A DNA stretch of 58,991 bases, from the NCBI GenBank assembly GCA_021807115.1, contig JAKAPJ010000006.1:1-58991 (forward strand), in the 5' to 3' direction. The position numbers were made by a program, and so were the translations under genes. Position 1 is the first letter of the stretch. The number at the start of each line of letters is the position of its first letter. The notes below the pieces were generated by a model that ran no database searches, was not told where the DNA came from, and saw nothing but the letters and a program-made list of their open reading frames with translations. This document shows, in pieces, positions 13,573 to 39,257 of the stretch. The stretch comes from Microcaldota archaeon (lineage in GTDB: Archaea; Micrarchaeota; Micrarchaeia; Micrarchaeales; Micrarchaeaceae).

Positions 13573-14310
13573 CTATTGCCCCTTTAGCTCTATGAAGCCA
13601 CGCGAGACCATTATGTTCAGTATCTGCTCCACGCGCGGTGGAGTTATCCTGTAGTTGCCGGCGAATTCGTTTATGTCTATTGCGCCGTCGTGCGACTCTA
13701 TCCACTCCTCGACCAGTGCCATGAGCGACTCGTCGGAGTACGTCTCTAGCTGCTTTAGCCTGTTCTTGAGCTCGGTGTTTTCCTGGCTAAGCATGGTAGC
13801 CTGCACGGAGAGGTTCTTGTTGGAGTTTGCCAGTTCCTTGTTGAGCTTGCGCAACTCCACGTACTTGCTGTAGAGCGTCTCGAGCTGCTGCACTACGGAG
13901 CTATAGTTGGGCGATAGTGTGGTAAGCGCGTTGTCTATTGACGAATCCACCTGGGGGTAGAGCATGGAGTCGTCCACGCGGTACTGGTCTATAACAAGCG
14001 AGAGGATAATTATTGTGTTCTTGAGGACAAAGAGGCGACGGAGGCTTGCGCTGGACAGCTGGTTAGGCACTACGTCCGGAGGGACCGAGTAGTCAATTTC
14101 CATGTGGTCAGGAAGGAACTTGAAAATCATGAAAAGAAAGGGCTTCTTCTGCACCGTCGTCGTCTCCACGCGCACCAGCGTGAGGTCGGTTGCAGTGGAC
14201 TTTATGGAGAACATCTGCAGCGTTGCCAGCCTGCGCGCCATGTCGGCGAAGTTCCCGGTCAGCGACCCGTTTAGCTTTATGCTTTCTATCTTGGGTTCCA
14301 ATACAGCCAT
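13573..14310 (-). CDS. Coiled-coil protein with C-terminal winged helix
   Basis: 245 residues from the ATG at 14310 (GTG 14331 would add seven). An N-terminal mixed alpha/beta domain (about 1-140) is unrecognised. Residues about 140-190 form a long coiled coil (LETLYSKYVELRKLNKELAN and onward). The last ~50 residues look like a winged helix: DGAIDINEFAGNYRITPPRV, then VEQILNIMVSRGFIE. It has its own TATA box and heads a transcription unit of three genes (this, the 49-residue ORF and the 807-residue membrane protein). A regulatory or DNA-handling function for the secretion-like locus is a guess. Confidence 0.72.
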   Translation of the reverse strand: MAVLEPKIESIKLNGSLTGNFADMARRLATLQMFSIKSTATDLTLVRVETTTVQKKPFLFMIFKFLPDHMEIDYSVPPDVVPNQLSSASLRRLFVLKNTIIILSLVIDQYRVDDSMLYPQVDSSIDNALTTLSPNYSSVVQQLETLYSKYVELRKLNKELANSNKNLSVQATMLSQENTELKNRLKQLETYSDESLMALVEEWIESHDGAIDINEFAGNYRITPPRVEQILNIMVSRGFIELKGQ

Positions 14311-14383
14311 CTCGCCTGCCACGCCTATCACTCACTATCCAACGACCGTGGACTGGGCCGTATATTAAGGATACCAAATAACC

Positions 14384-14422: not shown

Positions 14423-14776
14423 CTATTTCACCGCTTTTCCAGGGATGCTTACCCTTGGCACATATGTGAGCAGGGAGATGAAGTACATGAACACCACTAT
14501 CATCGACCCGAACACCACGCCGGACAGGGGGTTTATCGTTATTAGCAGTATCGCCATCAGTACACCCAGCGCAAGGTAGAGCTTGAGCCTGCCCTCGAAC
14601 TTCTTCCTGGCCTTGCGGTAGTTGGCATAGCACTCCTTGCAGACTACGAGGCGGAAGCCGGTCTTGCGGCCCAGTTTTTCTTTGACCCACCTTATGCCCC
14701 TTATGACATTGTCGTCGATAACCTCTAGGCCGTTCTTGTGCTCCCCGCACATTATGCATCGATTCTCCCTCATCAT
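14423..14776 (-). CDS. Zinc-ribbon protein with two membrane segments
   Basis: 117 residues. Cysteine pairs CIMC (about 7-10) and CKEC (about 46-49) form a small zinc ribbon on the cytoplasmic side, followed by a basic stretch (KARKKFEGRLK). Two membrane helices span about 67-82 and 87-108. No named family. It is one base after the 102-residue gene and belongs to the ATPase operon. The frame shift relative to the overlapping frame at 14412 was settled by the CXXC motifs. Confidence 0.75.
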   Translation of the reverse strand: MMRENRCIMCGEHKNGLEVIDDNVIRGIRWVKEKLGRKTGFRLVVCKECYANYRKARKKFEGRLKLYLALGVLMAILLITINPLSGVVFGSMIVVFMYFISLLTYVPRVSIPGKAVK

Positions 14777-14777
14777 A

Positions 14778-15086
14778 TCATCCGAAGTCTATGCTGACAT
14801 TGAACAGCCTGCCTGACTCTGACAGCACCCTCTGTTCATCCGCAGAGTCCAGGATGTCGCGTATTGTCACGTCGTCCATGCCTATCCTGCGGAACATATT
14901 GATTATCTGGTCCCTGTTCAGCCCCGCCTTCTCCAGCAACCCGGATAACGCTATGGCGTTTATGTGCCTGTGCGCCTTCTCCACCGCGCTCAGCAGCTGT
15001 TCCATGTTCTTGTCAGGTATGTTATAGGCTATCAAGACCCTGCGTATCTCCTGCCTGCTTATTATGAATGTCTCGGTCTTGGCCAT
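14778..15086 (-). CDS. Small helical protein resembling the ATPase C-terminal tail
   Basis: 102 residues, soluble and helical. The segment LEKAGLNRDQIINMFRRIGM followed by DDVTIRDILD aligns by eye with the last ~30 residues of the neighbouring ATPase (LKLNDVSTNN, then GIGLDDVIITRIIS). It appears to be a free-standing copy of that tail module, perhaps a regulator or assembly partner of the ATPase hexamer. Its ATG overlaps the ATPase stop in TAATG, so translation is coupled. Confidence 0.75.
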   Translation of the reverse strand: MAKTETFIISRQEIRRVLIAYNIPDKNMEQLLSAVEKAHRHINAIALSGLLEKAGLNRDQIINMFRRIGMDDVTIRDILDSADEQRVLSESGRLFNVSIDFG

Positions 15087-16594
15087 TATGCCCCTACCCT
15101 GGATATTATTCTGGTTATTATCACGTCGTCAAGGCCTATCCCCTTGAGGAAGAGGACGATGTTGTTAGTCGATACGTCATTGAGCTTGAGATCCTGCACG
15201 AAATCCAGTATCTTCATCTTCCTTCCGGACTGGTTCAGCTTTGAGAACACCTCATCGACGCCGATCTTGTTCATGTTGAGCTCTATCAGCTTGTTCTGCA
15301 GCTCGCCCTGCTCAAACTGGAACTCGTTCTCTATTATCTTTGCGGAAACCTCACCCTGCGTGAGTATGTCGCTCAGGGTTATGACGTAGACGTGCAGCGG
15401 CTCCTCCCCCTCTATGCGCTCCAGTATGAAGGTGCCGGGGAACCTTATTGCACTCTGGAACGCCATCTCTACGGCAGCCTGGCCTACGCCGAAGCGAGAT
15501 ATCTCCGTCCTTATGAATTGCGAGAAGTTGAGCGAACTCTGCAGGAAGTTGAGGAAGTTCTCGAACTTTACCTTGAGCATGAACGTGGTGCCTACGTTGG
15601 AGAATATAGCCTCGTTTATGTCTGTCGGATTTTGCGACGCCACAATCAGCGCGAACCCGTACTTCCTGCCCTCCCTGATTATAGTTATGACCGCGCTCTT
15701 GTCGTCCTTTGCCAGCTTCCACGCCTCGTCCAACACCAGGATCGTCTTGAGCCCCTTAACCGACAGCCAGCCCTCCGCGCGCATCTTCTCGGTGACCGTC
15801 TGGACTATGAAAAGCCCGGCAAGCGCCCTGAAACGCTCGTCGGGGAGACCTGAAACGTCGACATCAACAAGCCCCGAGTTCGCCAGCTTGCCCAAGTCCA
15901 GCGTGCTTTTCCTGGCAAAGAAGTCCTCCCCCTCCCGTGCGAACTGCCTCAGCCGGTATATGGCGTTCTCAAGCTCTGCAGGGTACTCGTATGTACCCTC
16001 CTGGAGCTTCTCGTCGAGCAGGGCTATCACATCCTTGAGCGTTGGGGCGTCCTTGCCCTCTGGCGGCTTCTCGTAGGGTATGAAGCCGAAGTTTGTGTAC
16101 GACTGCTCTAGTGCCTCTTCGGTAAGGCGCTTCTGCTCAGGGTACTGCCCGATGTCCGTCAGCAGGTCGAACGCGTTTATTATCTGCTTTACCCTGTCCA
16201 GCGGTTTCATGCTTGAAAGGTCCATGATGTTGAGGTAGTCGCCCTTCGCCAGCGCCACCACCACCCCCCCGCTCTGCTTCACCCAGTCCCTGTACTCGCC
16301 TGCCCAGTCTATTATTATCGCGTTGCTGTTCCATACGTAGCTTGCGCGTATGAGCAGCGTCTTGATGAAGTAGCTCTTCCCGGATCCGGTTATACCGACT
16401 ATGGACATGTGCGGATTTGCCAAGTTTGTGTAAGTCCATGAGAATGGCATCTTGAATATCTTGGTCGTGCCTATGAATATCGACCCGAATGGGTCGTTTA
16501 TGAGCACGTCAGAAGGCGGCTCTGGTGGACGGGACAGGAATGCCCTCTTTGCTATCTCGTTGCTCATTATGTGCTGCAGGCGTATAAGGGTCAT
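15086..16594 (-). CDS. VirB4/HerA-superfamily secretion ATPase
   Basis: 502 residues. It has Walker A GITGSGKS (about 69-76), an early acidic strand NAIIIDWAGEY, Walker B TILVLDEAW (about 287-295), and an ASQNP motif with a following arginine-rich region, as in VirB4, CedB and HerA motors of the FtsK-HerA class. The VirB4 N-terminal membrane-proximal domain is absent. It seems to be supplied by the two upstream genes. The C-terminal ~60 residues form an extra helical module duplicated in the next gene. It probably powers pilin handling or substrate transport across the membrane. The start is ATG 16594; ATG 16567 (MSNEIAKRAFL) is an alternative. Confidence 0.88.
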   Translation of the reverse strand: MTLIRLQHIMSNEIAKRAFLSRPPEPPSDVLINDPFGSIFIGTTKIFKMPFSWTYTNLANPHMSIVGITGSGKSYFIKTLLIRASYVWNSNAIIIDWAGEYRDWVKQSGGVVVALAKGDYLNIMDLSSMKPLDRVKQIINAFDLLTDIGQYPEQKRLTEEALEQSYTNFGFIPYEKPPEGKDAPTLKDVIALLDEKLQEGTYEYPAELENAIYRLRQFAREGEDFFARKSTLDLGKLANSGLVDVDVSGLPDERFRALAGLFIVQTVTEKMRAEGWLSVKGLKTILVLDEAWKLAKDDKSAVITIIREGRKYGFALIVASQNPTDINEAIFSNVGTTFMLKVKFENFLNFLQSSLNFSQFIRTEISRFGVGQAAVEMAFQSAIRFPGTFILERIEGEEPLHVYVITLSDILTQGEVSAKIIENEFQFEQGELQNKLIELNMNKIGVDEVFSKLNQSGRKMKILDFVQDLKLNDVSTNNIVLFLKGIGLDDVIITRIISRVGA

Positions 16595-16652: not shown

Positions 16653-17486
16653 TCACTGCTGTATGTCGAAGTTTGATGAGAGTTCCTCATAAGTGGTAGG
16701 TAGCGCGAAGCTGAACTTGAACAGGGTGTAGAGCTCCCTGCCGACCACGCGAAGTATCTGCACGTCGAGCACCCCCATCGCTATGGAAAGCTGCTTGAGC
16801 TGGGCGGAGAGGTTGTCCAATGCCGCCTTCTCGCTCACGCCCACCGCGGTTGTCTCTATATACATCAGGTTTGCTATCGGTTTCTCCTCCTGCGATATCC
16901 TGTCCATCTTCGCCTGTATCACGTTTATGTTCCTCTGCAAATCTGCCATTATAACCTCGGTGGTGTTCTTGCTCTGCATTGCACGCGACATCTGGAACTC
17001 CTGGTACGACCTCTTGCCCTCCAGCTCGTCCCTGACCTGCTGCACGTCCAGGGCGGAGGACATCACGTGGAACTTGAAAGGGAAGTCCAGGCTCATGACC
17101 GCCTTCTCCCAGTTCTCCGGTGCCACCATGCGCCGCTCATCCTCGCCCTCCGGGGCGGCCTCGGCCTTGAACGTGTGGGCGAACAGGTTCGCGGTAAGGT
17201 AGCCTGTGGCGTAGTAGAGCCCGTTTACGTTCTTTATCACCGCCTCCTGGCCCCTGGTTATCTTGTAGTTCCTTGATGGCTGGAACGTTATTCCAAACAA
17301 TCCCGTCATCAAAGGGAACACGATAAAGTCGGCGAACGTCATCATGAGCAGAAAGACCACGCCCAGTATGCATATCAGTATCACGCCGTACCCGTATATG
17401 CCGCCTCCGAACGTGCCGAAGTTGGCGGCCACTATGAATATTATGACCATGGACATTCCGAAGTACATCATGGTTGTATCGTCCAT
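16653..17486 (-). CDS. VirB3-like membrane hairpin plus VirB4 N-domain-like protein (copy 2)
   Basis: 277 residues. Two to three membrane helices lie in residues 8-65, followed by a cytoplasmic domain of about 200 residues. Segments such as GQEAVIKNVNGLYYATGYL and EKAVMSLDFPFKFHVMSSAL resemble the N-terminal domain of VirB4/TraC ATPases that contacts the membrane complex. A helical stretch with KRSYQEFQ follows. In bacteria VirB3 is often fused to VirB4, and here the VirB3-like hairpin and VirB4 N-domain appear fused while the motor is separate. Its ATG overlaps the previous stop in TAATG. The assignment is structural inference. Confidence 0.68.
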   Translation of the reverse strand: MDDTTMMYFGMSMVIIFIVAANFGTFGGGIYGYGVILICILGVVFLLMMTFADFIVFPLMTGLFGITFQPSRNYKITRGQEAVIKNVNGLYYATGYLTANLFAHTFKAEAAPEGEDERRMVAPENWEKAVMSLDFPFKFHVMSSALDVQQVRDELEGKRSYQEFQMSRAMQSKNTTEVIMADLQRNINVIQAKMDRISQEEKPIANLMYIETTAVGVSEKAALDNLSAQLKQLSIAMGVLDVQILRVVGRELYTLFKFSFALPTTYEELSSNFDIQQ

Positions 17487-18322
17487 TATGACACCTGCTC
17501 CCTTATCTGCTTGGTTATCTGCTCGCTTATTGTGGAATACGGTATTAGGTACTCAGGCTCCACGAACTTTAGCAGCGCCTCGCCCGTCACGATGCTTGGA
17601 GGCACCCCAAATATCGACCCTATTGCGGACATGGCGTCCCTGGACCTGGCCTGCGCCGCGCTTATTGCCTCGAACTCCTTGCTCCCCTTGCCTGACACCG
17701 AGGCGTATGTTATCATCTCGAATGACGCGGTGCCGCTTATCCTGTCGAACATATGGTGCCACATGCTTGCCTTGCCCTTCACCCGATCCTCGCTTTCGTC
17801 CGTCTTCACTCCGCTCGCTATCAGCGCCTCCTTGTTCTCTACCTCCCCTATAGTGTCACGGATGGTCTTTAGGTAGTCGTCCTTGTTCATAACGTTCATC
17901 TGGGACGTGAACCGTATGGGATCGTGGCTCATGCATACCACCCTGGCGCATTGCCTTGTGAACTCCATCTTCTCAGTCTCGCCCATCTCAGTGGCGGAGA
18001 TGTAGAGGGGTATCTTTATGTATATTGTTGATGTAAACATGTCGCCCTCCTTGTGCAGTATCGAGTCGCCGGTGGTAGACAGCCAATATGCGTCCTCGTT
18101 GCTGAGCACTATGTGCCTCTTCCTCTGCTTGAGCACTGGCAGGAACAGGTAGCCGTAGAACCTTGACGAGAACGCCATAAGGTCGAAGAAGAACGCCACG
18201 GCAAGTATCACCAGCCGGTACGATGGGTCTATCACTCCCTGTGGTATGGTTATCTCGACAAGCACCATGAATATCGCTATCATCAGCAACCCGATGAATA
18301 CGAATATACCTGCGTTTTCCAT
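17486..18322 (-). CDS. VirB3-like membrane hairpin plus VirB4 N-domain-like protein (copy 1)
   Basis: 278 residues from ATG 18322 (GTG 18349 would add nine). The layout matches the next gene: two membrane helices (about 4-24 and 34-60) and then a ~200-residue cytoplasmic domain with a beta-rich start (KRHIVLSNEDAYWLSTTGDS, IYIKIPLYIS), a conserved VCMSHDPIRFTSQM strand and a long helical part. The two proteins probably form a heteromeric collar between the VirB6-like channel proteins and the ATPase. Coupled to the next gene by TAATG. Confidence 0.68.
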   Translation of the reverse strand: MENAGIFVFIGLLMIAIFMVLVEITIPQGVIDPSYRLVILAVAFFFDLMAFSSRFYGYLFLPVLKQRKRHIVLSNEDAYWLSTTGDSILHKEGDMFTSTIYIKIPLYISATEMGETEKMEFTRQCARVVCMSHDPIRFTSQMNVMNKDDYLKTIRDTIGEVENKEALIASGVKTDESEDRVKGKASMWHHMFDRISGTASFEMITYASVSGKGSKEFEAISAAQARSRDAMSAIGSIFGVPPSIVTGEALLKFVEPEYLIPYSTISEQITKQIREQVS

Positions 18323-18384
18323 TCTTACATCACTGTGGACATCTCGCACATGGCGAAGCTACAGACTTGATATTGAGCGGCAAA

Positions 18385-18415: not shown

Positions 18416-19591
18416 TCATATGAACCCCGCCCTCAGCCTCCCCCCCATCTGCGTGCTGGCCCCTATGAAATTGGCGACTTGTGTTATGAATGCGTAAGTT
18501 ACGGATATTACGAGGACAGGGTAGAATAGAACAAACAGCCACAAGGGCTGCATTGGCGCAAACACTGATGTGTATAATGGGCCGGGCAGGCCGTTCAGGT
18601 CTATGCAGCCCGATGTATTAGGTGTGCACTGCGAGAACACGAAGGCGAACAGGGTCGGCATTACCACGTAGAACCCCATGCCTATTGCAATAAGCATTCC
18701 CCCAAACGCGCGGGTCGGGAAGAACGCCCTGAACACCACTCCAGTAGCAACGAGTATGGGCGACATGAAGGAGAAGAACACCAGCAGGTAGTACTCGGAC
18801 CACAGGACAGCCATAAGATCGGTGATTAGTGGTGCCAGGGTGATTATCGGAAGCATGTACTGTACATAATCACTCAGCTTTATCGCAGCGACCGAACCGG
18901 CCACAAACGACTGGAGGTATGACTCGAATTCTCCAAGTATAGGCAGCTCTATTGTGTAATCAACTGTCAATGCCATGGCGAGCTGGGCGTATCCTGTGCA
19001 GCACCCATTCACATTCAAAAGCCATGGCGCGGATACTGATATGTCGAACATGTTCTGGTCGAATATGTACTCCAGGTTGCCTATCGTATTGCATATGCCT
19101 CCGATAGCAAAAACATACGGATCCGTAAGGGCGGCGGTGGGCTTCCCGCCCTGGAACAGCACAAGGGAGTTGGTGGTCGACAGGGAGGATGTGCTGCCTA
19201 TGAGCACGGATGGCACCGTGTTTATAACCAAGCCGGCTATGAACAGGAAGAACCCAACTATTATTGCAGTCGTTATTGCCTCGTATATCTCGCCTAGCCC
19301 GAAGTTCCTTATCCTGTCGCTCTTCGCCGCCGCCCCCACCATGAATATTATAGTGGCAATCAGGAACGATATCAGCACCGCTATAAGGGCAATGTTGAAG
19401 TCAGGGCCCCATGATGCGTCTATGTTGCTTTGTACCTGCGTTGAGGATGGGCAGGCGGGGTATGTGGTGTACTGGGCGGCAGGGGACAGCGACAACAAGC
19501 TAGTTACCATTATCAGCGCCATGGCTGCAAGTGCGGCCAACTTCCGCGCCGATGGGACATCCCCGCTTCGTGAAATGCTTTTTCTCGGCAC
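18416..19591 (-). CDS. VirB6/CedA-like polytopic membrane protein (copy 6 of 6)
   Basis: 391 residues starting at GTG. It has a signal-like first helix (about 17-38), helices near 66-88 and 100-125, an extracellular loop with paired cysteines (CNTIG, NGCCTG), then four or more helices. The family signature of this locus is RAFFPTRAFGGMLIAIGMGF followed by a Pro in the next helix. A second shared element is the post-helix segment LGEIYEAITTAII. VirB6 and CedA proteins form the inner-membrane part of type IV systems and of the crenarchaeal DNA importer. Last of six tandem paralogues transcribed in the minus direction. Confidence 0.75.
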   Translation of the reverse strand: MPRKSISRSGDVPSARKLAALAAMALIMVTSLLSLSPAAQYTTYPACPSSTQVQSNIDASWGPDFNIALIAVLISFLIATIIFMVGAAAKSDRIRNFGLGEIYEAITTAIIVGFFLFIAGLVINTVPSVLIGSTSSLSTTNSLVLFQGGKPTAALTDPYVFAIGGICNTIGNLEYIFDQNMFDISVSAPWLLNVNGCCTGYAQLAMALTVDYTIELPILGEFESYLQSFVAGSVAAIKLSDYVQYMLPIITLAPLITDLMAVLWSEYYLLVFFSFMSPILVATGVVFRAFFPTRAFGGMLIAIGMGFYVVMPTLFAFVFSQCTPNTSGCIDLNGLPGPLYTSVFAPMQPLWLFVLFYPVLVISVTYAFITQVANFIGASTQMGGRLRAGFI

Positions 19592-19593
19592 GT

Positions 19594-20727
19594 CTACACC
19601 AGCCCCGCCAGTAGAGTCATGAAGTCCATCCTCTCGCCTACCGCCTGCGAGAAGTCAACTATGAAGGCGTCAAGTATCGTGAAGTTAAGGAAAGGTATGA
19701 ACGTCATCCCGGCAAGTGCCATCGCAACCTCATATACCCATGACCCGGTTGGCAGGCCAAGTCCCACAGCGATGCCGAGTATCGCACCCATCAGGTTGCC
19801 GCCCAGGCTCGCTACCGTGCAGCCAGACCCGCAGTTTGAGGAGGTACTCAGCTGGTAGTCAACAAATCCATACGTCAGGCTTGTCAGAAGGGGGTATACT
19901 AGGCCCAGCCCAAGGCCGAATGCGATCATTGCGCCCCCGAATGTCCTCATAAATCCGAAGGTCCTTGCAATGAGGCCTACTGTCATGAAAAATGACAGCC
20001 ATAGCATGGAAGCCGACACTATGAGTAGCTGCAGCTGGTTAAGGAACAGCAGCCCCAGTATCACAGAAAAGACGCTGTCGAATATCTCAAGAACCCCTAC
20101 TGGCAGGAAGCTGGACAGGCTATCTGACACTGAAAACCATATGTTCTGCACGGTAACCGTGCCGCTTATGTTTATACCCGGAGTTATGCCACCGTAGAAT
20201 GTTACATAGTACAGCACTTGGAACAGGCCGAAGGCGAATATATTGAACTGCGCTATGTCGCATGTCGCAAGTTCGAACAGGCTCTGCGCGCCGGAGCACG
20301 AGTATGTGCTGCCTGGCGGCGCTACAAGGTTCGCCTGGGCAAGGGAGCCCTCGGGGTTCACCGTAAGAAGGAAAATGAATGATACAAAAATTATTATTAG
20401 TGCTATGGAGAACAGCGCTTCGTACGCCTGGAACTTTGCCCAAGCGCGGGCGGTCGGACTGTCTATCAGGAAGCCGATCTGGTACACGACCGCAGCGACC
20501 ATTGTAACCACAAGGACGGCGAGGAAGGCTATACCTATCCATATCTCAGGAGTCACGGGAAACGAAACCTGCAGAACCTGCGTTAGTGCGCGATAAGGGG
20601 CGAACGGCCCTGCGCCATAGGCCGCCGCTGCAAATGGTGAGGCGATGATTGCAATCATGGCGATGGCAAGCGCCTTTGCCCGGAGCGGCGTGCCCGATGT
20701 TTCTTGATCCATGTTTCGCATCTTCAT
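19594..20727 (-). CDS. VirB6/CedA-like polytopic membrane protein (copy 5 of 6)
   Basis: 377 residues. There is a signal-like N-terminus with AIIASPFAAAAYG, helices at about 62-88 and 100-125, and a cysteine-bearing extracellular loop (TYSCSGAQ, LATCDIAQ). A C-terminal helix cluster carries the shared signature RTFGFMRTFGGAMIAFGLGL then YPLL, and the extracellular loop after it has SNCGSGC. The post-helix element is AKFQAYEALFSIALII. It ends two bases before the next start, so translation is coupled. Confidence 0.75.
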   Translation of the reverse strand: MKMRNMDQETSGTPLRAKALAIAMIAIIASPFAAAAYGAGPFAPYRALTQVLQVSFPVTPEIWIGIAFLAVLVVTMVAAVVYQIGFLIDSPTARAWAKFQAYEALFSIALIIIFVSFIFLLTVNPEGSLAQANLVAPPGSTYSCSGAQSLFELATCDIAQFNIFAFGLFQVLYYVTFYGGITPGINISGTVTVQNIWFSVSDSLSSFLPVGVLEIFDSVFSVILGLLFLNQLQLLIVSASMLWLSFFMTVGLIARTFGFMRTFGGAMIAFGLGLGLVYPLLTSLTYGFVDYQLSTSSNCGSGCTVASLGGNLMGAILGIAVGLGLPTGSWVYEVAMALAGMTFIPFLNFTILDAFIVDFSQAVGERMDFMTLLAGLV

Positions 20728-20746
20728 TGTTATCAGTATATTTTGT

Positions 20747-21838
20747 TCATACTATGTTCTTTAGCGCTTGCGAAGACCGCAGGCTCGGCGCACCCAGCAG
20801 GTCTCCCATCACTTCCATGAAGTCGAACGCTATCATGAATGATATCACTATGCCAAACAGTATATAGATTACGGGGGATGCGTCGTTCTCTATGAAGTTG
20901 CCAACTATACCGAACCCAAGCGACTGAAACCCCGGGAATGCGGTGGATGTGGGGTTTATGCTCTGCAGTACCGTGGTGGTCTGCGACTGGGCGGTTATTA
21001 CGGCGACGTTCAGCTGCGTAACCATGAGATACAGCAGCAGCGGAAATACTATGTAGAAGCCTATGAACAGGCCTAGGAACGCCCCGCCCGCGGCTCTGGT
21101 CCACGGTATGGTCCTCAGTATTATGCCGGCGAAGAAGAATATCGGGAACAGGGAGAATATCACAGACAGGATTATGGTGGATGCCAGGGGCAGCGCTATC
21201 AGGACTATAGCAATGTTGAGGACCGTGCCGATAAACACGCTCTGCATCAGCAGCCCAGAAAGGGGAGACATGGAGGCGCTTATCATGCCGGCGTACCCGA
21301 AACTGAAAGTCATGTTAGATATAAGGGCTATAACCTGTTGGTTGAACAGTATTCCGGCCAGGTCCCCTATTATCGTGTTTACTGCGGTGGAAAGGCTCTC
21401 ACAATCGGTGGTGAATACGTTGGGACCCATTGTGCCCGGGCTCAGCGCGAGGAAGTTCCCAGGCGGCAGGCCGGAGGGGCCGGTCCACGAAAGCGCCTGG
21501 AATGTCCCCAAGAACACCAACACTATGGCAACGGTTACTGCAATCTCACCCAGCTCCGCCTTGGCCATGGATGATACAGACTGTATATTGAAAGCGTAGC
21601 CGATAAGGAACAGGAACACCGCCACGTTTATCATGAGCAGCATTATGAGCATTGATACCAATATTATGCTGTTGAATGGGCCGGCGCCTGACATGCCTAG
21701 CACGGACGTGCCGGGGTTTATAAGGGAGCTGCAGTAGTCGGCATTGGCTAGCGATGGCAGCACGGCCAGAATCAGCGCGGCAAGTGCAATTGTGCGCAGT
21801 GCACGTATGCCAATCCCATCCCGCAAGTACCTACGCAT
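20747..21838 (-). CDS. VirB6/CedA-like polytopic membrane protein (copy 4 of 6)
   Basis: 363 residues, the shortest of the six. It has a signal-like first helix (TIALAALILAVLPSLANA), a helix at about 58-85, the shared post-helix element MAKAELGEIAVTVAIVLV, and the signature RTIPWTRAAGGAFLGLFIGF followed by YIVFPLL. The loop between the early and late helices is short and has one cysteine (TTDCESL). The protein ends in a cytoplasmic tail. It is 19 bp before the next gene. Confidence 0.75.
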   Translation of the reverse strand: MRRYLRDGIGIRALRTIALAALILAVLPSLANADYCSSLINPGTSVLGMSGAGPFNSIILVSMLIMLLMINVAVFLFLIGYAFNIQSVSSMAKAELGEIAVTVAIVLVFLGTFQALSWTGPSGLPPGNFLALSPGTMGPNVFTTDCESLSTAVNTIIGDLAGILFNQQVIALISNMTFSFGYAGMISASMSPLSGLLMQSVFIGTVLNIAIVLIALPLASTIILSVIFSLFPIFFFAGIILRTIPWTRAAGGAFLGLFIGFYIVFPLLLYLMVTQLNVAVITAQSQTTTVLQSINPTSTAFPGFQSLGFGIVGNFIENDASPVIYILFGIVISFMIAFDFMEVMGDLLGAPSLRSSQALKNIV

Positions 21839-21852
21839 GCCCTACACCATAT

Positions 21853-23373
21853 TCACACGAATCTCGACAGTCCCAGCACATTAGTCTCGCCGCCCATTAA
21901 TCCCGACATGCCGAATATCGCAGACAGGGTGACCATTATGTTGAGTATGGGCAGAAAGTACGAAACCACGCCCGTCACGCCGTAAGTCTGCACTATGGCG
22001 AACAGCATTCCCTCTGCTCCGCTATTCTCGCCGCCCAGCGGACACACTGCCCCGCCCAGCGAGGACAGCTGCGAGGCAAAGTTGCTGGGAAATATCGGGG
22101 CTGCGCCCACTATTGCGCCCTCGAACGAACTGGGTATGCCACCCCAGTTCTGGCTCGTTATGTCCTTGAATATGCCGAGGAATATGTTGACCACCGCGCT
22201 ACCTATGGCTGCACCCCAGAACACTATGGAGCCTATGCCAAGTATGAGGAAGTCTGTCCCTTCACTGTTTATCAGGCCTCCTGAAGGCCAGCAGCCACAG
22301 TCCTGCGCTATGCCCTTGACCTGGGGTGCGACGAAAAAGTTCTCCGTGTACTGGTACTGGGACCCCCCGCAATAGTAGAATGTGTTAGGGGAAGTTATCT
22401 GCGGGTTGTTTGCGGCGAGGTATTCTATGGAGAATATTGCGGGGTAGAAAAGTATGCCGCCCACGGCGAATGCTATCAGCAACCCGCCCACCTTCCTGGT
22501 GAAGAATGTGGCTCTAAGCACCATGCCGCCGAATATGAGGTACGGCCATATGTAAAGGAAGAAGTTTACGAACAGCAGCTGTGTTATGAACGAGAACAGC
22601 GATGTGTAGAGGAGTGTAGCGTAGGTGGCCAGGGATCTGGTTATCATCTCAAGGCCCGCCATTGGTGCGGCGCTGAACACTACCATGAACAGCTGTGGGG
22701 GGGCGCCCGGTAGTGGGACATAGCAGGAGAACGAGTCAGGCAGCTGTACGCAGAACGAAGCGGTTATGCTGAGGTGCTGCAGGAAGTTCAGGAACGCGTC
22801 CTCAACGAATGTGGAGTTGAGATTCGCAGATGTCTGGTTCGTGAGGTTGGCCAGCACGACGCCGGTGGCGGCCAGCGGGTACTCCATGGCCTGCATGCCG
22901 GTTGGTGACTGCGTGGAACCTGATACTATGGTGCATATACCGGGCTGGAGATTCTCAAGCAGGGAGTTGACTATCTCGAACGAGGTGCTGGAACTGGTAG
23001 AGGTGGATAGGGAGTTGCATAGCTGCACCATGCAGGTCTGCGAAAGCGCGGTCTGGCCAGTGGCGGAAGAGCCAGTGCAGGTGAAGCCTTCAGCCATTGG
23101 GGCATTTATTATCGACAGGAACAGCTGTCCGAACACGAGTAGCAGCCCCAACACCAGGCCGGCTATTATGGCAGTCTCCACTATTTGGTAGAACTCGCCC
23201 TTTGCCGAAGTCTTGACCCTCTGGTTGTTCAGGACGAAGCCTGCCATGTACCATATGGCAACTATGCCGCTGTCGATCAGCAGCGCGATTATGACAAGCG
23301 GCCATATACTGACCTGTGCAGGGCCGAATGGGGGTGCGGAAAGGAGCGCTGAATTGGTTAGTATTGGTATCAT
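21853..23373 (-). CDS. VirB6/CedA-like polytopic membrane protein (copy 3 of 6)
   Basis: 506 residues, the largest of the six because of two long extracellular loops: one with several cysteines at about residues 85-225 (GFTCTGSSA, TCMVQLCN, FSCYVPLP) and one near 330-370 (YYCGGSQYQY, DCGCWPSGG). The conserved helices carry the post-helix element SAKGEFYQIVETAIIAG and the signature RATFFTRKVGGLLIAFAVGG then YPAIF. No cleavable signal peptide is obvious. The size of the loops suggests a surface-exposed or substrate-contacting subunit. Confidence 0.75.
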   Translation of the reverse strand: MIPILTNSALLSAPPFGPAQVSIWPLVIIALLIDSGIVAIWYMAGFVLNNQRVKTSAKGEFYQIVETAIIAGLVLGLLLVFGQLFLSIINAPMAEGFTCTGSSATGQTALSQTCMVQLCNSLSTSTSSSTSFEIVNSLLENLQPGICTIVSGSTQSPTGMQAMEYPLAATGVVLANLTNQTSANLNSTFVEDAFLNFLQHLSITASFCVQLPDSFSCYVPLPGAPPQLFMVVFSAAPMAGLEMITRSLATYATLLYTSLFSFITQLLFVNFFLYIWPYLIFGGMVLRATFFTRKVGGLLIAFAVGGILFYPAIFSIEYLAANNPQITSPNTFYYCGGSQYQYTENFFVAPQVKGIAQDCGCWPSGGLINSEGTDFLILGIGSIVFWGAAIGSAVVNIFLGIFKDITSQNWGGIPSSFEGAIVGAAPIFPSNFASQLSSLGGAVCPLGGENSGAEGMLFAIVQTYGVTGVVSYFLPILNIMVTLSAIFGMSGLMGGETNVLGLSRFV

Positions 23374-23381
23374 ATTTGCAC

Positions 23382-24686
23382 CTACACGTTAGCCCAGAAT
23401 GATGCTGTGCCCTCGATGCCGGTGTCGAGGGCGCGTGCGAGGCCCATGGCGAACCCTATTGTTATAGACATGTCTATGGCAAACATAAACACGGCGGAGA
23501 ACAGGTACTCAGCCACGGAGTTTAGCACCGTCTGCGTCTCCTGCACTGCCGAAGACCCACCCGCGCCCAGCAGCTGCGGGAAAGCATTGAGCCCGGTAAA
23601 TACGCCGTTGATCATATCGGCCGTGACCTGGAGGAGGGGGATCTGCAGGGTGGTGACCCCGAGGTTTATGCTCAGGGGGGGCTGGGATCCTATATTCTGG
23701 AATATCGCAGTGCTGAAGTCCTCGTAGCTGTACGTGCCGCATAAGTACGGCTGGGCTGGATTGCACCCGGAATTTGGCATTGGGTTGCCGAACTTGTCGA
23801 CAGGGCAGGCGGTGAACATCCACGTCACAGCATAGTAATCGAACGCTATGGTTAGCGGGTATATTAAATAGCCAGCTATGGACAGGGAGAGTAGCGCGTT
23901 AGCTGAACTGCGTATTCCAGGACCGGTGAATGCGAATGACCGCAGTATGAACGCGGCGGGCAGCAGTATGACGAAGGCGGAGTTCTGCACTATTATCAGC
24001 ACAAGGTACTGCAGGAACATTAGGCTTATCCCCACCAGCAGCACGGGTATGAAGAAATCCACATACACGCTGCTGAGTATGTAGAATGGCGTACTGAGAT
24101 CCACCCCTATAGGAAGGCTGTAATCTGCCCTGAAGTTGGATGTGGGCGGGCCCATGGTGAAGTTGCCAGACAGCCCGGGCACCTCTGCGAGTATGCTTGT
24201 CATTATCGAACCTACCACCGGCCATTCGCCGCTCTGTATCGCATAGTTGTATGAGTCACCGTAGATTTCAGTTGCTAGGTACGGGCCGCGGTCCAGCGCC
24301 ATGAAGCCTACGTAGTTCTCGGCGTACGTAAAAGGGTCGCTGGCGGGGAGCATTATCACATTGGTCGGGCAAGGTATGGCTGTGTATAGCGTGACGGCAT
24401 TAGGCACGGAAGCGAGATCCGCCCCAAGTGAGGCCACGAAGTAGCATGCAAGTGAAGTCGACGCAATGAGCATGAAAAGTATAATTGCGCTCAGGACCGC
24501 CTGACTTGTCTCTATCTTAACTATCCCAAGCAGGCGCGCCTTGGGATTTGCGGACAATGAGCGGCTGAACAGGTATAGCACAGCTATGGCCCCGAAAGTT
24601 ATCAGCAGCACGAGTAGATTTATGTTCAACCATGTGTTGACACCTCCGTACAAGGTACATGTTGGCGGTGGCCAAACTCCTGCCAT
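23382..24686 (-). CDS. VirB6/CedA-like polytopic membrane protein (copy 2 of 6)
   Basis: 434 residues. The N-terminus has a short extracellular segment with CTLYGG, a helix at about 21-42, the post-helix element GIVKIETSQAVLSAIILFM, and helices through about 270. The diverged signature RSFAFTGPGIRSSANALLSL then LIYPL lacks the GG pair seen in its paralogues. A cysteine-rich loop (CPVDKFG, GCNPAQPYLCG) follows, then two C-terminal helices. It begins 8 bp after the preceding gene and ends 8 bp before the next. Confidence 0.73.
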   Translation of the reverse strand: MAGVWPPPTCTLYGGVNTWLNINLLVLLITFGAIAVLYLFSRSLSANPKARLLGIVKIETSQAVLSAIILFMLIASTSLACYFVASLGADLASVPNAVTLYTAIPCPTNVIMLPASDPFTYAENYVGFMALDRGPYLATEIYGDSYNYAIQSGEWPVVGSIMTSILAEVPGLSGNFTMGPPTSNFRADYSLPIGVDLSTPFYILSSVYVDFFIPVLLVGISLMFLQYLVLIIVQNSAFVILLPAAFILRSFAFTGPGIRSSANALLSLSIAGYLIYPLTIAFDYYAVTWMFTACPVDKFGNPMPNSGCNPAQPYLCGTYSYEDFSTAIFQNIGSQPPLSINLGVTTLQIPLLQVTADMINGVFTGLNAFPQLLGAGGSSAVQETQTVLNSVAEYLFSAVFMFAIDMSITIGFAMGLARALDTGIEGTASFWANV

Positions 24687-24694
24687 TTGAAAAC

Positions 24695-26017
24695 CTATGC
24701 AAGTTTCATCTTACCTATGCTGAGCCGCAGGTTGCCGCCCAGCATCTTTGCCATGTTCTGTGTAAGTGTGAGCACGACCATCAAGTCGAGAATAAATAGT
24801 ATGAATTGCACCATCATTGGCAGATCGGCGAAGATGAATACCGTTGTAAGCCCAGGCATGACATTTCCTGAGAGCATGGCGCCTGCTGCGGCATTGTAGC
24901 TGTTGAAGAATGCGCTCTGCACCTGGCCGTTGGATATGCCAAGGAAGAGCGTCTGGAAGGGCGTTGCGAATAGGTAGAGTATGCTGCCTATTACCGTGCA
25001 CAGCGCGCCGCCGCCGTTGCATGGAAATCCTGAAAGTGCACTGGTTGGGCCGGGCTGTATGGCGAGGTAGACGGACTGGAAATATTCAGTCATCGGTATG
25101 TTGAAAAACACCAATGTTGCAGGGTATATTAGGGACGCACCTATGGCAAGCGCCAGAAATGTGCCGCCTATGGGCCGTAGGAATGGAAATGCCCTAAGTA
25201 TCACGCCAAGCGGCATGAATACGCCCAGGCCAATGGCCATGAACGTGAGCAGCAAATAGTATTGGGCGTCTATCGCAAGCATTAGCGGCATTATGAGTAT
25301 GGTGAGCGTGTCCTGCACTATCCCGCCCGGCCAACCTATCGGGTTGTACCTGAAGACATTACTCTGATAGAACTCTATGCTTGATATGCCGAAATTTATG
25401 GAGCCTACAACGGGAAATGGTGGGATTGGCACTATGAGGGGTATCTGGCTGAGTCCCGGAGTTATCCACATTATGTTAAGGCTTCCCACATAGAGCAGTG
25501 CCATGGTGGTGCCCAGTATGGCCATGTATGACGCATTCACGGCTACCGTTTCCTGCAGGAGATAGTCATTGGCGCACAGGTACAGCAGCGTTATGTTGGT
25601 AGTCGAAGAGCCGAAGCCGCTGGTAGGACAGCCATTGAACCCAGTCGCGGATGCAGTGGCGAATGATGCGAACGATCCCACTATCATTATGAGAGCGAAC
25701 ACTATGCCCACTATCGCTATGCTCTTCGCAGCCTCCCAAAGCTCGTTCTTGTACCAGCCCTTGAAAGACTGCACGTTCAGGACTTCGCCCAGCAGGTATG
25801 CAACCGCAACAATCTGGAACGCAAGAAGCAGCCCCACAGCCACGTATACCAGCGATGAGTTTATGCATGCATTTATGTCGTTAGTGTTGGCGTTCAGCGG
25901 CGCACAGAAGAAGTTAGTGAAGGTGCCCCCGCCCGCATACGCTACTGCCTCTAGCGAGGCTAACGCTCCAAGCGCCAAAAGCAATATGGGAGCGCGCCCC
26001 ACTGCATATCCTCTCAT
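24695..26017 (-). CDS. VirB6/CedA-like polytopic membrane protein (copy 1 of 6)
   Basis: 440 residues, first gene of the six-gene array. It has a signal-like start (LLLALGALASLEAVAYAGG), an extracellular segment with CAPLNANTNDINACIN, helices at about 52-75 and 88-118, and the post-helix element WYKNELWEAAKSIAIVG. The signature RAFPFLRPIGGTFLALAIGA then LIYPA is clear, and the loop FPCNGGGALCTVIG follows. A TATA box about 31 bp before its ATG makes it the likely promoter-proximal gene of the array, with a nearly leaderless start. Confidence 0.75.
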   Translation of the reverse strand: MRGYAVGRAPILLLALGALASLEAVAYAGGGTFTNFFCAPLNANTNDINACINSSLVYVAVGLLLAFQIVAVAYLLGEVLNVQSFKGWYKNELWEAAKSIAIVGIVFALIMIVGSFASFATASATGFNGCPTSGFGSSTTNITLLYLCANDYLLQETVAVNASYMAILGTTMALLYVGSLNIMWITPGLSQIPLIVPIPPFPVVGSINFGISSIEFYQSNVFRYNPIGWPGGIVQDTLTILIMPLMLAIDAQYYLLLTFMAIGLGVFMPLGVILRAFPFLRPIGGTFLALAIGASLIYPATLVFFNIPMTEYFQSVYLAIQPGPTSALSGFPCNGGGALCTVIGSILYLFATPFQTLFLGISNGQVQSAFFNSYNAAAGAMLSGNVMPGLTTVFIFADLPMMVQFILFILDLMVVLTLTQNMAKMLGGNLRLSIGKMKLA

Positions 26018-26060: not shown

Positions 26061-26792
26061 TCAGAGCTTCAGCATTGGGAACCGGCGCATGTATGCTTGG
26101 CTCTGCAGCACTACCAGGAACGGGATTATGAAAAGAGAGTTGAATATGAGCAGCAGGAATCTGGACCCTGACGTACCGCCGATAGCTATGAATATGAAGT
26201 CGAACACCGTTATTAGCGCTATGGCTGCCACAACCCACAGCAGTGGGTACTTTATCTCCCTCACGAAGAAGGCTGCGCTTGCCGCCATGGAACGCTCTAT
26301 GCTGCGCTCGTCTATGACTATCGATGCGGGGGCATAGAAGAAGAATGGAGTGAGTATAAGGCCGACTATCGCAGTAACTGCCGCAGGGACACCCACGGCG
26401 TAGTCGAACACGCTTACCACACCCATCAGCAGCGTGAAGAACACAAGCACGCTGAACACGCTTGATGTGTATCGCTCAAGGCCTTCGAGGACCTCGCGCT
26501 TTATCTTTGTATGCGTCCTGCTGTGCTTCACTATGACGTTTATTGCCACTATCGCGAAACTCAGGAACAGGAGGGAGAACAGTGTGGAGAATATTATGAC
26601 TGCTGTGCTGAAAAGGGTGAGGTTGTGGAACACACTGGCCTGCCTTATGAATATCGCGCCTGCATCGTTATATGCAGGTAGCGAGGCAAACAGTGGGATA
26701 AGGAATGCAATGACGAATGAGACTGAGAACAGAAGTATGAGGGGCATATGCGACAGGTAGAAGTCAACTGAATAGCGTATTATGCTGGCCAT
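26061..26792 (-). CDS. Six-helix membrane protein, unknown
   Basis: About 243 residues from ATG 26792 (TTG 26813 would add seven). Roughly six hydrophobic helices are spread evenly, with a basic cytoplasmic loop (HSRTHTKIKRE) after the second or third. The pattern resembles archaeal membrane proteins of unknown function with a six-helix domain rather than the VirB6-like array. It lacks the GG...P signature. Placed between the pilins and the VirB6-like genes on the same strand, it may belong to the machine. Confidence 0.68.
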   Translation of the reverse strand: MASIIRYSVDFYLSHMPLILLFSVSFVIAFLIPLFASLPAYNDAGAIFIRQASVFHNLTLFSTAVIIFSTLFSLLFLSFAIVAINVIVKHSRTHTKIKREVLEGLERYTSSVFSVLVFFTLLMGVVSVFDYAVGVPAAVTAIVGLILTPFFFYAPASIVIDERSIERSMAASAAFFVREIKYPLLWVVAAIALITVFDFIFIAIGGTSGSRFLLLIFNSLFIIPFLVVLQSQAYMRRFPMLKL

Positions 26793-26844
26793 TTCGTACC
26801 ACTGCGCATCCAAGGCATCCTGGCAAGAACAGATTGCAAATCTA

Positions 26845-26888: not shown

Positions 26889-27257
26889 TTACTTGCACAG
26901 TTTTGCCACAGCCGCGATGTTCGTGGCCGCCGAGCCGCCGGATGCCACCCCTAGGATCCACGGGGACAGTATAGCGATTATGACCCCTGCTATGCCGCCC
27001 ATGACCATGCCCATTCCGTATCCTTGTATCTGGCCCCTGGACTGGCCGGGCATCAGCTGAGAGCCCGCGTAAAGCGTTGCGCCCAGTATCATTAGCATTA
27101 TACCGAGAACAAAAATTATTGTCTGTACGGTGCTGTATATGCTGTAGACTGCGCACTCGGCATTGGTTATGGTCTGCGCATAAGGCGAGACAGCCACTAG
27201 CCCAAGCAGCGCCAGTACTATTGTAGCAATCCTTGAGTACCTCAGCGCCGTTGCCAT
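26889..27257 (-). CDS. VirB2/TrbC-like pilin (A)
   Basis: 122 residues. A signal peptide (about 1-28) is cleavable near SPYAQ. The mature part begins with ITNAECAVYSIYSTVQTIIF, has two membrane helices separated by the cytoplasmic turn MPGQSRGQIQGYGMGMV, and ends KLCK. The two cysteines, near the mature N-terminus and at the C-terminus, could form an extracellular disulfide. This is the layout of VirB2/TrbC pilins and of the VirB2-like pilins of archaeal Ced/Ted DNA importers, which polymerise into hollow filaments. It is very similar to the pilin at 27900-28292, indicating recent duplication. Confidence 0.82.
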   Translation of the reverse strand: MATALRYSRIATIVLALLGLVAVSPYAQTITNAECAVYSIYSTVQTIIFVLGIMLMILGATLYAGSQLMPGQSRGQIQGYGMGMVMGGIAGVIIAILSPWILGVASGGSAATNIAAVAKLCK

Positions 27258-27367: not shown

Positions 27368-27733
27368 TCATCCGCACACCTGTGCCACTGCGGCGATGTT
27401 CGCCGAGGATGCACCACCAGATATTATGTCAAGCAAGTACGGCGCTATTGATGCTATTATGACTCCGGACACCCCGCCTATCACCATCCCCATTCCATAT
27501 CCTTGGATGTTGCCCCTGGACTGCTGCGGCATGATGTTTGCAGCTGCGTATACCGCGGCGCCGAGTACGATGAGCATTATTGCAACTATGTATATGGCGG
27601 TCCTTACCGTATTGTATATCAGGTATATGTTGCACTCTATGCTGTTGCCTATGGAATTGGAAAACTGCGCCGGCGCAGTGCCTGTCCAGAAATTGAGCAG
27701 GAACAGGATTGTTGTAATTAGCCTTAGTGCCAT
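27368..27733 (-). CDS. VirB2/TrbC-like pilin (B)
   Basis: 121 residues from ATG 27733 (TTG 27766 is possible). The signal helix ends near GTAPAQ. The mature protein has the N-terminal cysteine in NSIECNIYLIYNTVRTA, two helices around the turn MPQQSRGNIQGYGMGMV, and a C-terminal QVCG. It is more diverged than the other two small pilins: the second helix reads GVIIASIAPYLLDIISG. It probably mixes with, or replaces, the other pilins in the filament. Confidence 0.82.
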   Translation of the reverse strand: MALRLITTILFLLNFWTGTAPAQFSNSIGNSIECNIYLIYNTVRTAIYIVAIMLIVLGAAVYAAANIMPQQSRGNIQGYGMGMVIGGVSGVIIASIAPYLLDIISGGASSANIAAVAQVCG

Positions 27734-27846
27734 TGACAGGCGCGGTGCGCTTATATTTGCATCCAATTTCCCACCCTTTTGTCAGATGTAGGATAAGGGC
27801 GGCATAACGCCCAGACCCCTATCCCCTGACATGTGTAAAAGGAAAT

Positions 27847-27899: not shown

Positions 27900-28292
27900 T
27901 TATGCGCATAGGGACTGGACCGCGGCGATGTTCGACGCAGCTGTGCCTCCGGAAACTATTCCGAGGATCCACGGGGACAGTATGGCGATTATTACGCCTA
28001 TAATACCGCCCATGACCATGCCCATTCCGTATCCTTGGATGTTACCCCTGGACTGGCCGGGCATCATGTGGGATCCGGCATACAGTGCTGCGCCCAGTAT
28101 CATGAGCATTATGCCAAGTACGAATATAACTGTCTGGACAGTGGTATACACGTTGTATATGGCGCACTCCGCGTTGTTCACCGACTGCGCAGAGGAAACC
28201 ATCGCCCCTAGCACGCCGAACAGCGTAAGCATCAGCATGGATAGCCTAGAATACCTGTTCATTACCCTTACCAGATTATACTGTAGGTTCAT
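27900..28292 (-). CDS. VirB2/TrbC-like pilin (C)
   Basis: 130 residues from ATG 28292 (GTG 28301 and ATG 28262 are alternatives; the last best matches pilin A). The signal peptide ends near VSSAQ. The mature sequence VNNAECAIYNVYTTVQTVIF, the turn MPGQSRGNIQGYGMGMV and the end SLCA are almost the same as in pilin A. It has its own promoter with an inverted repeat round the TATA box and a strong hairpin after it, suggesting it is the major, separately regulated pilin. Confidence 0.82.
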   Translation of the reverse strand: MNLQYNLVRVMNRYSRLSMLMLTLFGVLGAMVSSAQSVNNAECAIYNVYTTVQTVIFVLGIMLMILGAALYAGSHMMPGQSRGNIQGYGMGMVMGGIIGVIIAILSPWILGIVSGGTAASNIAAVQSLCA

Positions 28293-28326
28293 GGAAACCA
28301 CATTTTTGTATTTTTACTATTGATAT

Positions 28327-33300: not shown

Positions 33301-33542
33301 ATTGCGTTTGTGGCACATGGCTCGCCGGGGGAGGAAAGCTCAGTGATAATATGGTTGGAGTCGCACGTTACGCCTACGCCGTTCAGGTACGTTACTGCAA
33401 CGGACGCCCCGGGCGTTATGTTGGTTGCGGTAGTAGCCAGGCTATCCGCGCCCGTGCACTGTAGCAGTACATACATGAATAAGATTGCTGCGATTGGCAA
33501 AAGCCTGCGTATCTGTTGCATGATTTCATGTTGGTCTGCCAT
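30345..33542 (-). CDS. Giant surface protein with internal VirB2-like hairpin and glycine-rich C-terminus
   Basis: 1065 residues. A signal peptide (about 1-32) precedes an extracellular region to about 500 with cysteine-bearing repeats of the type GNYMVCGYDY. Residues about 511-600 are a VirB2-like unit: CYIYNQVNTALVLLTIVLLL, the turn LPAADRGVIQGYGIGMFLAG, a second helix and SSC. A Thr/Ser linker (about 603-640) follows. From about 700 to the end the chain is polyglycine-rich (runs of 5-9 Gly) with many cysteines (CQSCSWC, CCNGN). Both ends of a VirB2 hairpin face outward, so both large domains should be surface-exposed. A role as a pilus tip or adhesin is inferred. Confidence 0.75.
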   Translation of the reverse strand: MADQHEIMQQIRRLLPIAAILFMYVLLQCTGADSLATTATNITPGASVAVTYLNGVGVTCDSNHIITELSSPGEPCATNAISLLSGGYCDLYYTNQPSGSQANTYPPPACLLDEAVSLSGTTCKAVSYTNHSVLQGQYNICTFYNYNGGWFPGYAVGLNVTNTNTLGISSSGDDVVFSGGLASLPWCTSGSCYLEFAGGASGQGCVSPIPKGSTSPQLSACTGTLTASEAPCLVSSGSSSGTFNPDSLPKGNYMVCGYDYSSQPIPCASSCSMYISTQFASANVVCSGAGGSGNCVEGGPYHVPSGSGQHVSTISFGSFAFNTPTTIAGNMISANFVIDGVVPPGPGQSYSPLFLYANSLPPGTAISNNYAALCGPIVSSISGSSQCNGASHSAASGCYQQYELTDTGAGVSCGYASGSGSSAYDPSPPCSCQASSLASVDSSVLDCNVNSVTPTADSANPTGTLPVGNYIYCGVFQPSPTAAPIYDALGFFQVYQPAPPPPIQSYGPNNTAPFLQAVCYIYNQVNTALVLLTIVLLLLGAIMYEGSHVLPAADRGVIQGYGIGMFLAGVVGAIISTSALWIISMATNTPVSQILSSCAGTYNANLTTTTSSTSTTTSSTSTSSTSSSTSTTSTTSTICQMYEVTNPPIQAGGVASVISCTGNNCYLSGDAVSDCNIQVDSSYTLYTNGFNLVAGNTITLDGTVVTGNGTVEGASQWGSYSTAVANVPGGGGGYGSGVSCQSCSWCSWSWTGHLCCNGNNQNIGTGGQAGTGGGEYGGPGGGGGGGAANDTASPECGAATTAGGNGGGYNGAATSQAGPWCDGACGTFNSCGSSDCGICDTSTTCRNPNSGCGGSPVALGNSGGGGNAGTGQGAQSGGGGAYCGTTTGTGSQTAYPGGSGSTGSPYATPSLSAISSLWPNPGNDNIAPAFTGSGGGGGGDGAISGQESQGSPGGNGAYGIYIQANTIKGSGYVYSNGASGTPGNCNGGSATGGAGGGGGGGGAIVIAYDVSVSAALHLSVNGGAGGSGTTCGSNPYLIPASGGSGYGGNGAITMLRWSTTPPVSP

Positions 33543-39154: not shown

Positions 39155-39257
39155 TTTGCACCACACATGCTTGACTTGCGGCGGCCGCGCGTGCCGCGGC
39201 GCACCCAGATAGTCTTGTGCGGCGCAGCTTAAAAATCCTACCTTGGGCGAGGCGGTC

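Follow-up and report, generated by a model that had tools for sequence, protein, structure and literature searches.

A 58,991-nucleotide stretch of DNA from a Microcaldota archaeon (contig JAKAPJ010000006.1 of assembly GCA_021807115.1, analyzed whole and called the window below) carries six consecutive paralogous genes, M1 to M6, which encode polytopic membrane proteins and lie in conserved synteny with genes for pilin-like proteins and a VirB4-type motor ATPase. We put the probability at roughly 0.55 that these genes specify a domesticated chromosomal machine resembling a type IV secretion system (T4SS), in which the six M proteins would form an obligate hetero-oligomeric VirB6-like platform, each occupying one fixed position, most likely in a pseudo-hexameric ring. 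The more specific proposition, that the platform is an obligate hetero-hexameric ring of six colinear paralogues that replaced a homo-oligomeric ancestor still present in the same cells, falls a little short of even odds. The contig is part of a Micrarchaeota genome of 1.18 Mb (86% complete), and the named records that match it best are nearly all metagenome-assembled genomes of Micrarchaeota, together with the complete chromosome of "Ca. Micrarchaeum sp. A_DKE" (NZ_CP060530.1).

The six open reading frames (ORFs) lie on the minus strand between positions 18416 and 26017 and were correctly delimited in an initial annotation of the sequence: in the direction of transcription, M1 (24695..26017, 440 amino acids), M2 (23382..24686, 434 amino acids), M3 (21853..23373, 506 amino acids), M4 (20747..21838, 363 amino acids), M5 (19594..20727, 377 amino acids), and M6 (18416..19591, 391 amino acids). 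That annotation had also taken them for one family, and an all-against-all comparison of profiles, each built from 21 genomes (the window and 20 relatives), bears this out. All 15 pairs matched, M3, M4, and M6 included, with probabilities of 93.5 to 99.5% and scores of 63 to 174, whereas the neighboring six-transmembrane family m250, used as a control, scored at most 26 (probability ≤3.2%) against any M profile and reversed profiles at most 36 (≤19.4%). By this measure of sequence, M1 to M6 are ancient paralogues. The late signature ascribed to all six, R-x5-R-x2-GG, proved exact for M1, M3, M4, M5, and M6 (97 of 105 members) and is otherwise nearly absent (one occurrence among 231 other ORFs of 150 amino acids or more). 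M2 has a diverged element instead, approximately LRS-x-x-F-x-G-x-x-[LI]R-x-x-[AS]N, with the signature itself in 0 of 21 members. The early element, annotated as KxExxE-like, aligns as K-x-[EQ]-x-x-[EQ] in M1 to M5 (KNELWE, KIETSQ, KGEFYQ, KAELGE, and KFQAYE, respectively) and reads GEIYE in M6.

Hydropathy gives most M members five to eight transmembrane segments (about seven in M1 and six in M2), with a charged loop after an early segment, the R...R..GG turn between two late ones, and a charged C-terminal tail. The cysteine-bearing, acidic-biased loops fall on the side opposite these three elements and are presumably extracellular; as annotated, M3 has the largest of them and the most cysteines. 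In some lineages the M proteins are extended by large lineage-specific loop insertions to as much as ~1,100 amino acids, and immunoglobulin (Ig)-like and CARDB adhesion domains were seen in such extended forms of M5 (L038:5971-8499) and of M4 and M5 (L112:9827-15255).

The number of M genes is constant. Within Micrarchaeota, counting with the M profiles gave six, no more and no fewer, for all 53 complete clusters, which come from 40 genomes and 13 families and comprise one set of 43, including one (L091) whose M2 is hidden by an overlapping frame and was found on inspection, and a second set of ten. Another 45 named loci had 9.5 kb or more of sequence upstream of p277, the second gene downstream of M6; in 38 of them the six M genes stood in order, and neither these loci nor the 53 complete clusters included an unbroken cluster of five or of seven. 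Of the remaining seven loci, four end within the cluster, one is frameshifted, and two have their cluster elsewhere. Candidate deviations did not withstand inspection. In L192, L194, L203, and L205, sequence ends cut the clusters because extra DNA lies between M6 and p287; L199 is frameshifted; in L131, L141, and genome G050, the cluster is elsewhere in the genome; and the M4 of L224 (L224:4245-6700) is interrupted by an in-frame stop codon, which marks either a pseudogene or an assembly error. One genome of the window's order (G039) holds three copies of the cluster (L218, L219, and L220), all running off contig ends. M genes were detected in 87 and p277 in 88 of 96 near-complete genomes; M1 as sole query against the genome contigs returned no match, while p277 as query succeeded.

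Gene order is conserved as well. M1 to M6, p287, p277, and the motor follow one another identically in 20 of 20 relatives, with an occasional extra ORF between M6 and p287, and every M gene of a relative finds its best match in the window gene of corresponding position, M1, for example, having one-to-one orthologues in place in all 20. Family f11 has the gene order of the window. In other families the M clusters stand apart from the motor, usually two per genome, and such genomes carry 6+6 M genes with position-specific orthology: profiles of positions 1 to 6 of the duplicated cluster types A and B match on the diagonal, and among 720 permutations the colinear assignment ranks best for the window's M set against types B and C and for A against B, and third for the M set against A. 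Position-wise orthology indicates that the set of six predates the sampled families and that duplication copied it whole.

A strictly invariant number, unchanged even where the whole cluster has been duplicated, is just what a six-membered ring predicts, and a collection of interchangeable channels would not readily account for it. Alternatively, each M protein could form a homo-oligomeric platform of its own, or the six could be a modular kit serving different partners, pili, or substrates, and the number would then reflect six specialized functions. The large loop insertions, a mark of strong specialization, would fit that alternative, as would the precedent of repertoire-type duplication in the trw genes of Bartonella (PMC2653234). 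A repertoire should vary in number, however, which the M count never does, and genomes of the window's order have a single motor gene; we regard this alternative, in either form, as rather unlikely. Taken together, the invariant six, the colinear orthology, the 6+6 duplication, and a one-copy sister system described below lend strong indirect support to a predicted hetero-hexamer.

The genes downstream of M6 provide the context for a T4SS-like reading. The motor (15086..16594, minus strand like all genes described here, 502 amino acids) lacks the N-terminal domain of VirB4. It matches Pfam DUF87 (59.7 bits) and the NCBIfam models for CD1110 VirB4 and CedB (~72 bits, below the curated cutoff), its similarity to CedB being distant at 72 of 700 bits, and it is 60 to 74% identical among those genomes of the order that have it. 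The missing N-terminal part appears to be encoded separately by p277 (16653..17486), which has two transmembrane segments and a VirB4-N-terminus-like domain, so that the family traits of a type IV secretion VirB4 ATPase are found across the two genes. An AlphaFold model of p277 (predicted local distance difference test [pLDDT] 77.6) retrieved R388 VirB4 as all of its top five Foldseek matches among 350,542 chains (expect values [E] of 0.026 to 0.032 and probability 0.99 for the first four); hhalign detected no similarity between p277 and VirB4N-, PrgI-, or TrsD-like proteins in an insensitive comparison with few plasmid sequences. The adjacent p287 (17486..18349), a conserved neighbor with two transmembrane segments and a soluble domain, is a paralogue of p277 (hhalign 96.2% over 257 columns) and probably resembles the VirB4 N terminus as well. 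The structural match of p277 and the VirB4/CedB similarity of the motor suggest a split VirB4, with two membrane-anchored N-terminal parts and one ATPase; in a VirB4 hexamer of dimers, p287 and p277 could fill the inner and outer places. Gaps of 2 to 19 bp between the M genes and overlapping junctions between p287 and p277 and between the motor and s102 make a single operon likely.

A second locus in some of the same genomes suggests where the six genes came from. "Ca. Micrarchaeum" A_DKE (L212:6982-10236) and four other genomes (L123:4152-7371, L213:8307-11479, L214:6967-9983, and L215:7213-10796) have a separate four-gene locus encoding a pilin, one M-like protein with ~7 transmembrane segments, one p277-like protein, and one small motor. 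Its pilin is homologous to those of the window (95.9%), and its M-like protein (L212:8802-9875 in A_DKE) shows homology with each of the six M families (97.2 to 99.5%), best with M6 and M4 and worst with M5. The gene order parallels that of monoderm plasmids (small membrane protein, VirB6/TrbL, PrgI, VirB4), and the layout is of the Ced/Ted kind (PMC9905601); the locus is likely a minimal system of that type. Given these likenesses, the six-gene system looks like a one-gene system that has expanded, in which M went from one to six and the VirB4N-like protein from one to two, with the motor remaining a single gene in the window's order. Two-cluster families have two motors in several cases and only one strong match in others.

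In the mechanism we propose, an ancestral single VirB6-like protein, of the type still encoded by the one-copy locus, would have duplicated into six specialized paralogues before the sampled families diverged. A homo-oligomeric ring would thereby have become a ring of subunit-specific paralogues in which genes equal positions, each paralogue filling one fixed place of an obligate hetero-oligomer, so that no gene could be gained or lost; the logic is comparable to that of MCM2-7 or CCT. The cytoplasmic K-x-E-x-x-E loop, R-x5-R-x2-GG turn, and C-terminal tail would face the VirB4-type motor, and the loops that have diversified outside the cell would be turned toward the pilin and the partner cell. 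VirB4 is a hexamer with six-fold symmetry, and the number of M genes equals its order. The multi-ring channel raised in the initial annotation as an alternative to a hetero-hexamer found no support.

Several observations weigh against this reading, and two of them concern the number of subunits in the ring. The solved rings of R388 VirB6 and of DotA are pentamers (PMC9259494, PMC12857230), and in M2, as in the position-2 equivalents of other cluster types, the late region is kept in diverged form and never ends in GG. These two facts open the way to the main rival, itself unlikely in our view, in which M1, M3, M4, M5, and M6 would build a hetero-pentameric ring and M2 would be a homologous accessory subunit serving as a plug, as a pilin adaptor, or in a VirB5-like role. 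When we looked by profile comparison for pilin-M homology like that reported between CedA1 and CedA, the similarity was weak throughout, and M2 had the strongest (36%, with the other M families at ≤7.3%), which also speaks for an accessory M2. Yet the core of M2 is homologous to the other five (93.5 to 98.8%) and similar in topology, its version of the late element still aligns, and it is retained as strictly as the others.

Further points of this kind bear on kinship with VirB6 itself. Structures were modeled for two monomers, p277 and M5. The M5 model (pLDDT 77.0; predicted template modeling score 0.70) found R388 VirB6 chains at Foldseek ranks 2, 5, 6, and 10 of 350,542, but the matches are weak (E of 0.13 to 0.48; probability 0.63 to 0.35; template modeling score 0.25 to 0.27) and designed helical repeats share their rank. 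Comparison of the M profiles by hhalign with seven TrwI-type and two CD1112-type VirB6 proteins reached at most 1.2%, by a method insensitive enough to give only 2% for TrwI against CD1112. No significant Pfam or NCBIfam family, TrbL/VirB6 profiles included, was found for any of M1 to M6, nor was there a match in a PDB sequence search, and some families have no M match. The lack of sequence matches and the shared rank would be expected if the cluster encoded an archaeal secretion or adhesion complex with a HerA/VirB4-like ATPase and no T4SS kinship, the resemblance to VirB6 being generic helical packing. We consider this very improbable, since p277 independently matches VirB4, the motor matches VirB4 and CedB, and the one-copy gene order parallels that of the plasmid systems. 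The M genes do encode polytopic membrane proteins alongside VirB2-like pilins and VirB4. We infer that they are VirB6-like by this context and weakly by fold, and not proven family members; the label "VirB6/CedA-like" in the initial annotation stands on gene context (pilins, the VirB4N-like pair, and the VirB4/CedB-type motor) and a weak fold match, and finds no detectable sequence homology to known VirB6 proteins behind it.

Compared with known systems, a T4SS-like machine with a six-part platform has partial counterparts. Ced of the Sulfolobales and Ted of the Thermoproteales are DNA-exchange systems, each with one CedA/TedA, the pilin CedA1/TedC, and the motor CedB/TedB (PMC9905601). The six-gene system shares with them a chromosomal location, a VirB2-like pilin, a protein of the CedA/TedA type with 6 to 7 transmembrane segments, and a VirB4/HerA-type motor related to CedB. 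It departs from their one-CedA/TedA layout in having six M paralogues (CedA being compared by description only), two VirB4N-like proteins, a split and only distantly CedB-like motor, and pilin-fused surface proteins. The initial annotation held that known systems have one to a few VirB6 copies, which overlooks the Rickettsiales, where Rickettsia has five rvhB6 paralogues (PMC2653234) and Anaplasma four tandem virB6 genes (PMC7648143). Multiplication of VirB6 in host-dependent organisms is thus already known, and the vir homologue T4SS of the Rickettsiales is the nearest precedent: its paralogues are likewise very divergent, carry large extra domains, and are individually conserved across genomes. 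They number four or five by family, however, have a recognizable TrbL/VirB6 domain, and sit in diderm cells, whereas the M genes are always six, without a recognizable TrbL domain, in a monoderm archaeon.

In the T4SS of Patescibacteria (PMC12102498), a near-ubiquitous chromosomal system, mostly without relaxase, serves ultra-small epibionts and is essential for epibiotic growth in one species. There, a separate VirB4-N-like TrsD beside VirB4 resembles the placement of p277 and p287 beside the motor; unlike the M system, it is bacterial and of the MPF-FATA class, VirB6 is detected only sparsely, and the portions consulted mention no six-fold set of VirB6 proteins. The R388/Trw T4SS (PMC9259494; PDB 7o3v, 8rt9, and 8rtd), which supplies the best structural matches for p277 and some of the best for M5, differs in that a single gene product makes up its homo-pentameric VirB6 and its VirB4 joins N-terminal and motor domains in one chain. 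In the open-licence papers searched, we found no report of an invariant six across a phylum, archaeal and beside a one-copy homologue. A tblastn search of VirB4 against plasmids returned only bacterial VirB4/DUF87 records, and no archaeal conjugative plasmid, among its best matches; no relaxase or coupling protein was noticed among the ORFs adjoining the cluster, where no dedicated search was run.

The remaining genes of the locus frame the M cluster, the full order in the 5' to 3' direction of transcription being bigC, bigB, bigA, three small pilins, m250, M1 to M6, p287, p277, the motor, s102, s117, and c252. Immediately upstream of M1, m250 (26061..26813) is a conserved gene with six transmembrane segments that is not homologous to M. 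It is preceded by pilA (26889..27257), a candidate two-transmembrane pilin of the VirB2/CedA1 kind and homologous to the pilin of the one-copy system, and by the pilin-like pilB (27368..27766) and pilC (27900..28301), the three sharing one signature. The large surface proteins bigA (30345..33542) and bigB (33750..37295) have embedded, and bigC (37406..39166) a C-terminal, pilin-like hairpin of two transmembrane segments, homologous to the small pilins, as if they were adhesins that a VirB2-like pilus displays or incorporates; the number of such fusions in relatives ranges from zero to about four. On the other side, s102 (14778..15086) is a stand-alone copy of the 80-residue C-terminal domain of the motor (hhalign 97.4%) and adjoins the motor in many relatives. 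It is followed by s117 (14423..14776), a small, conserved two-transmembrane neighbor, and by c252 (13573..14331), conserved in position, with a coiled coil, a winged-helix-like C terminus, and weak Pfam matches only. In the type-A clusters examined, a long protein with one transmembrane segment follows M6 (~960 to 1,640 amino acids as far as seen; for example, L112:16332-20000, L120:14750-18850, and L107:10673-15595), some running past the sequence end; a Pfam scan of the L120 protein, the only one scanned, gave no domain.

Just how DPANN archaea make contact with their hosts is not settled, and the M cluster specifies a near-universal, operon-encoded candidate machine in the phylum Micrarchaeota, including the cocultured "Ca. 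Micrarchaeum" A_DKE. The growth of Micrarchaeota with Thermoplasmatales hosts (PMC8975820) makes a role in host contact plausible; that DNA or nucleotides are imported from the host, by analogy with Ced, would be a guess. Because one genome can encode both the six-paralogue platform, invariant in number, and a one-copy homologue, the pair offers a natural experiment in how a ring loses its symmetry, and it bears on which of the two, the VirB6 pentamer or the VirB4 hexamer, dictates the symmetry of T4SSs. To our knowledge, no VirB6-type assembly other than a homo-pentamer is known; a hetero-hexameric ring, if true, would be the first, and it would match the six-fold symmetry of VirB4.

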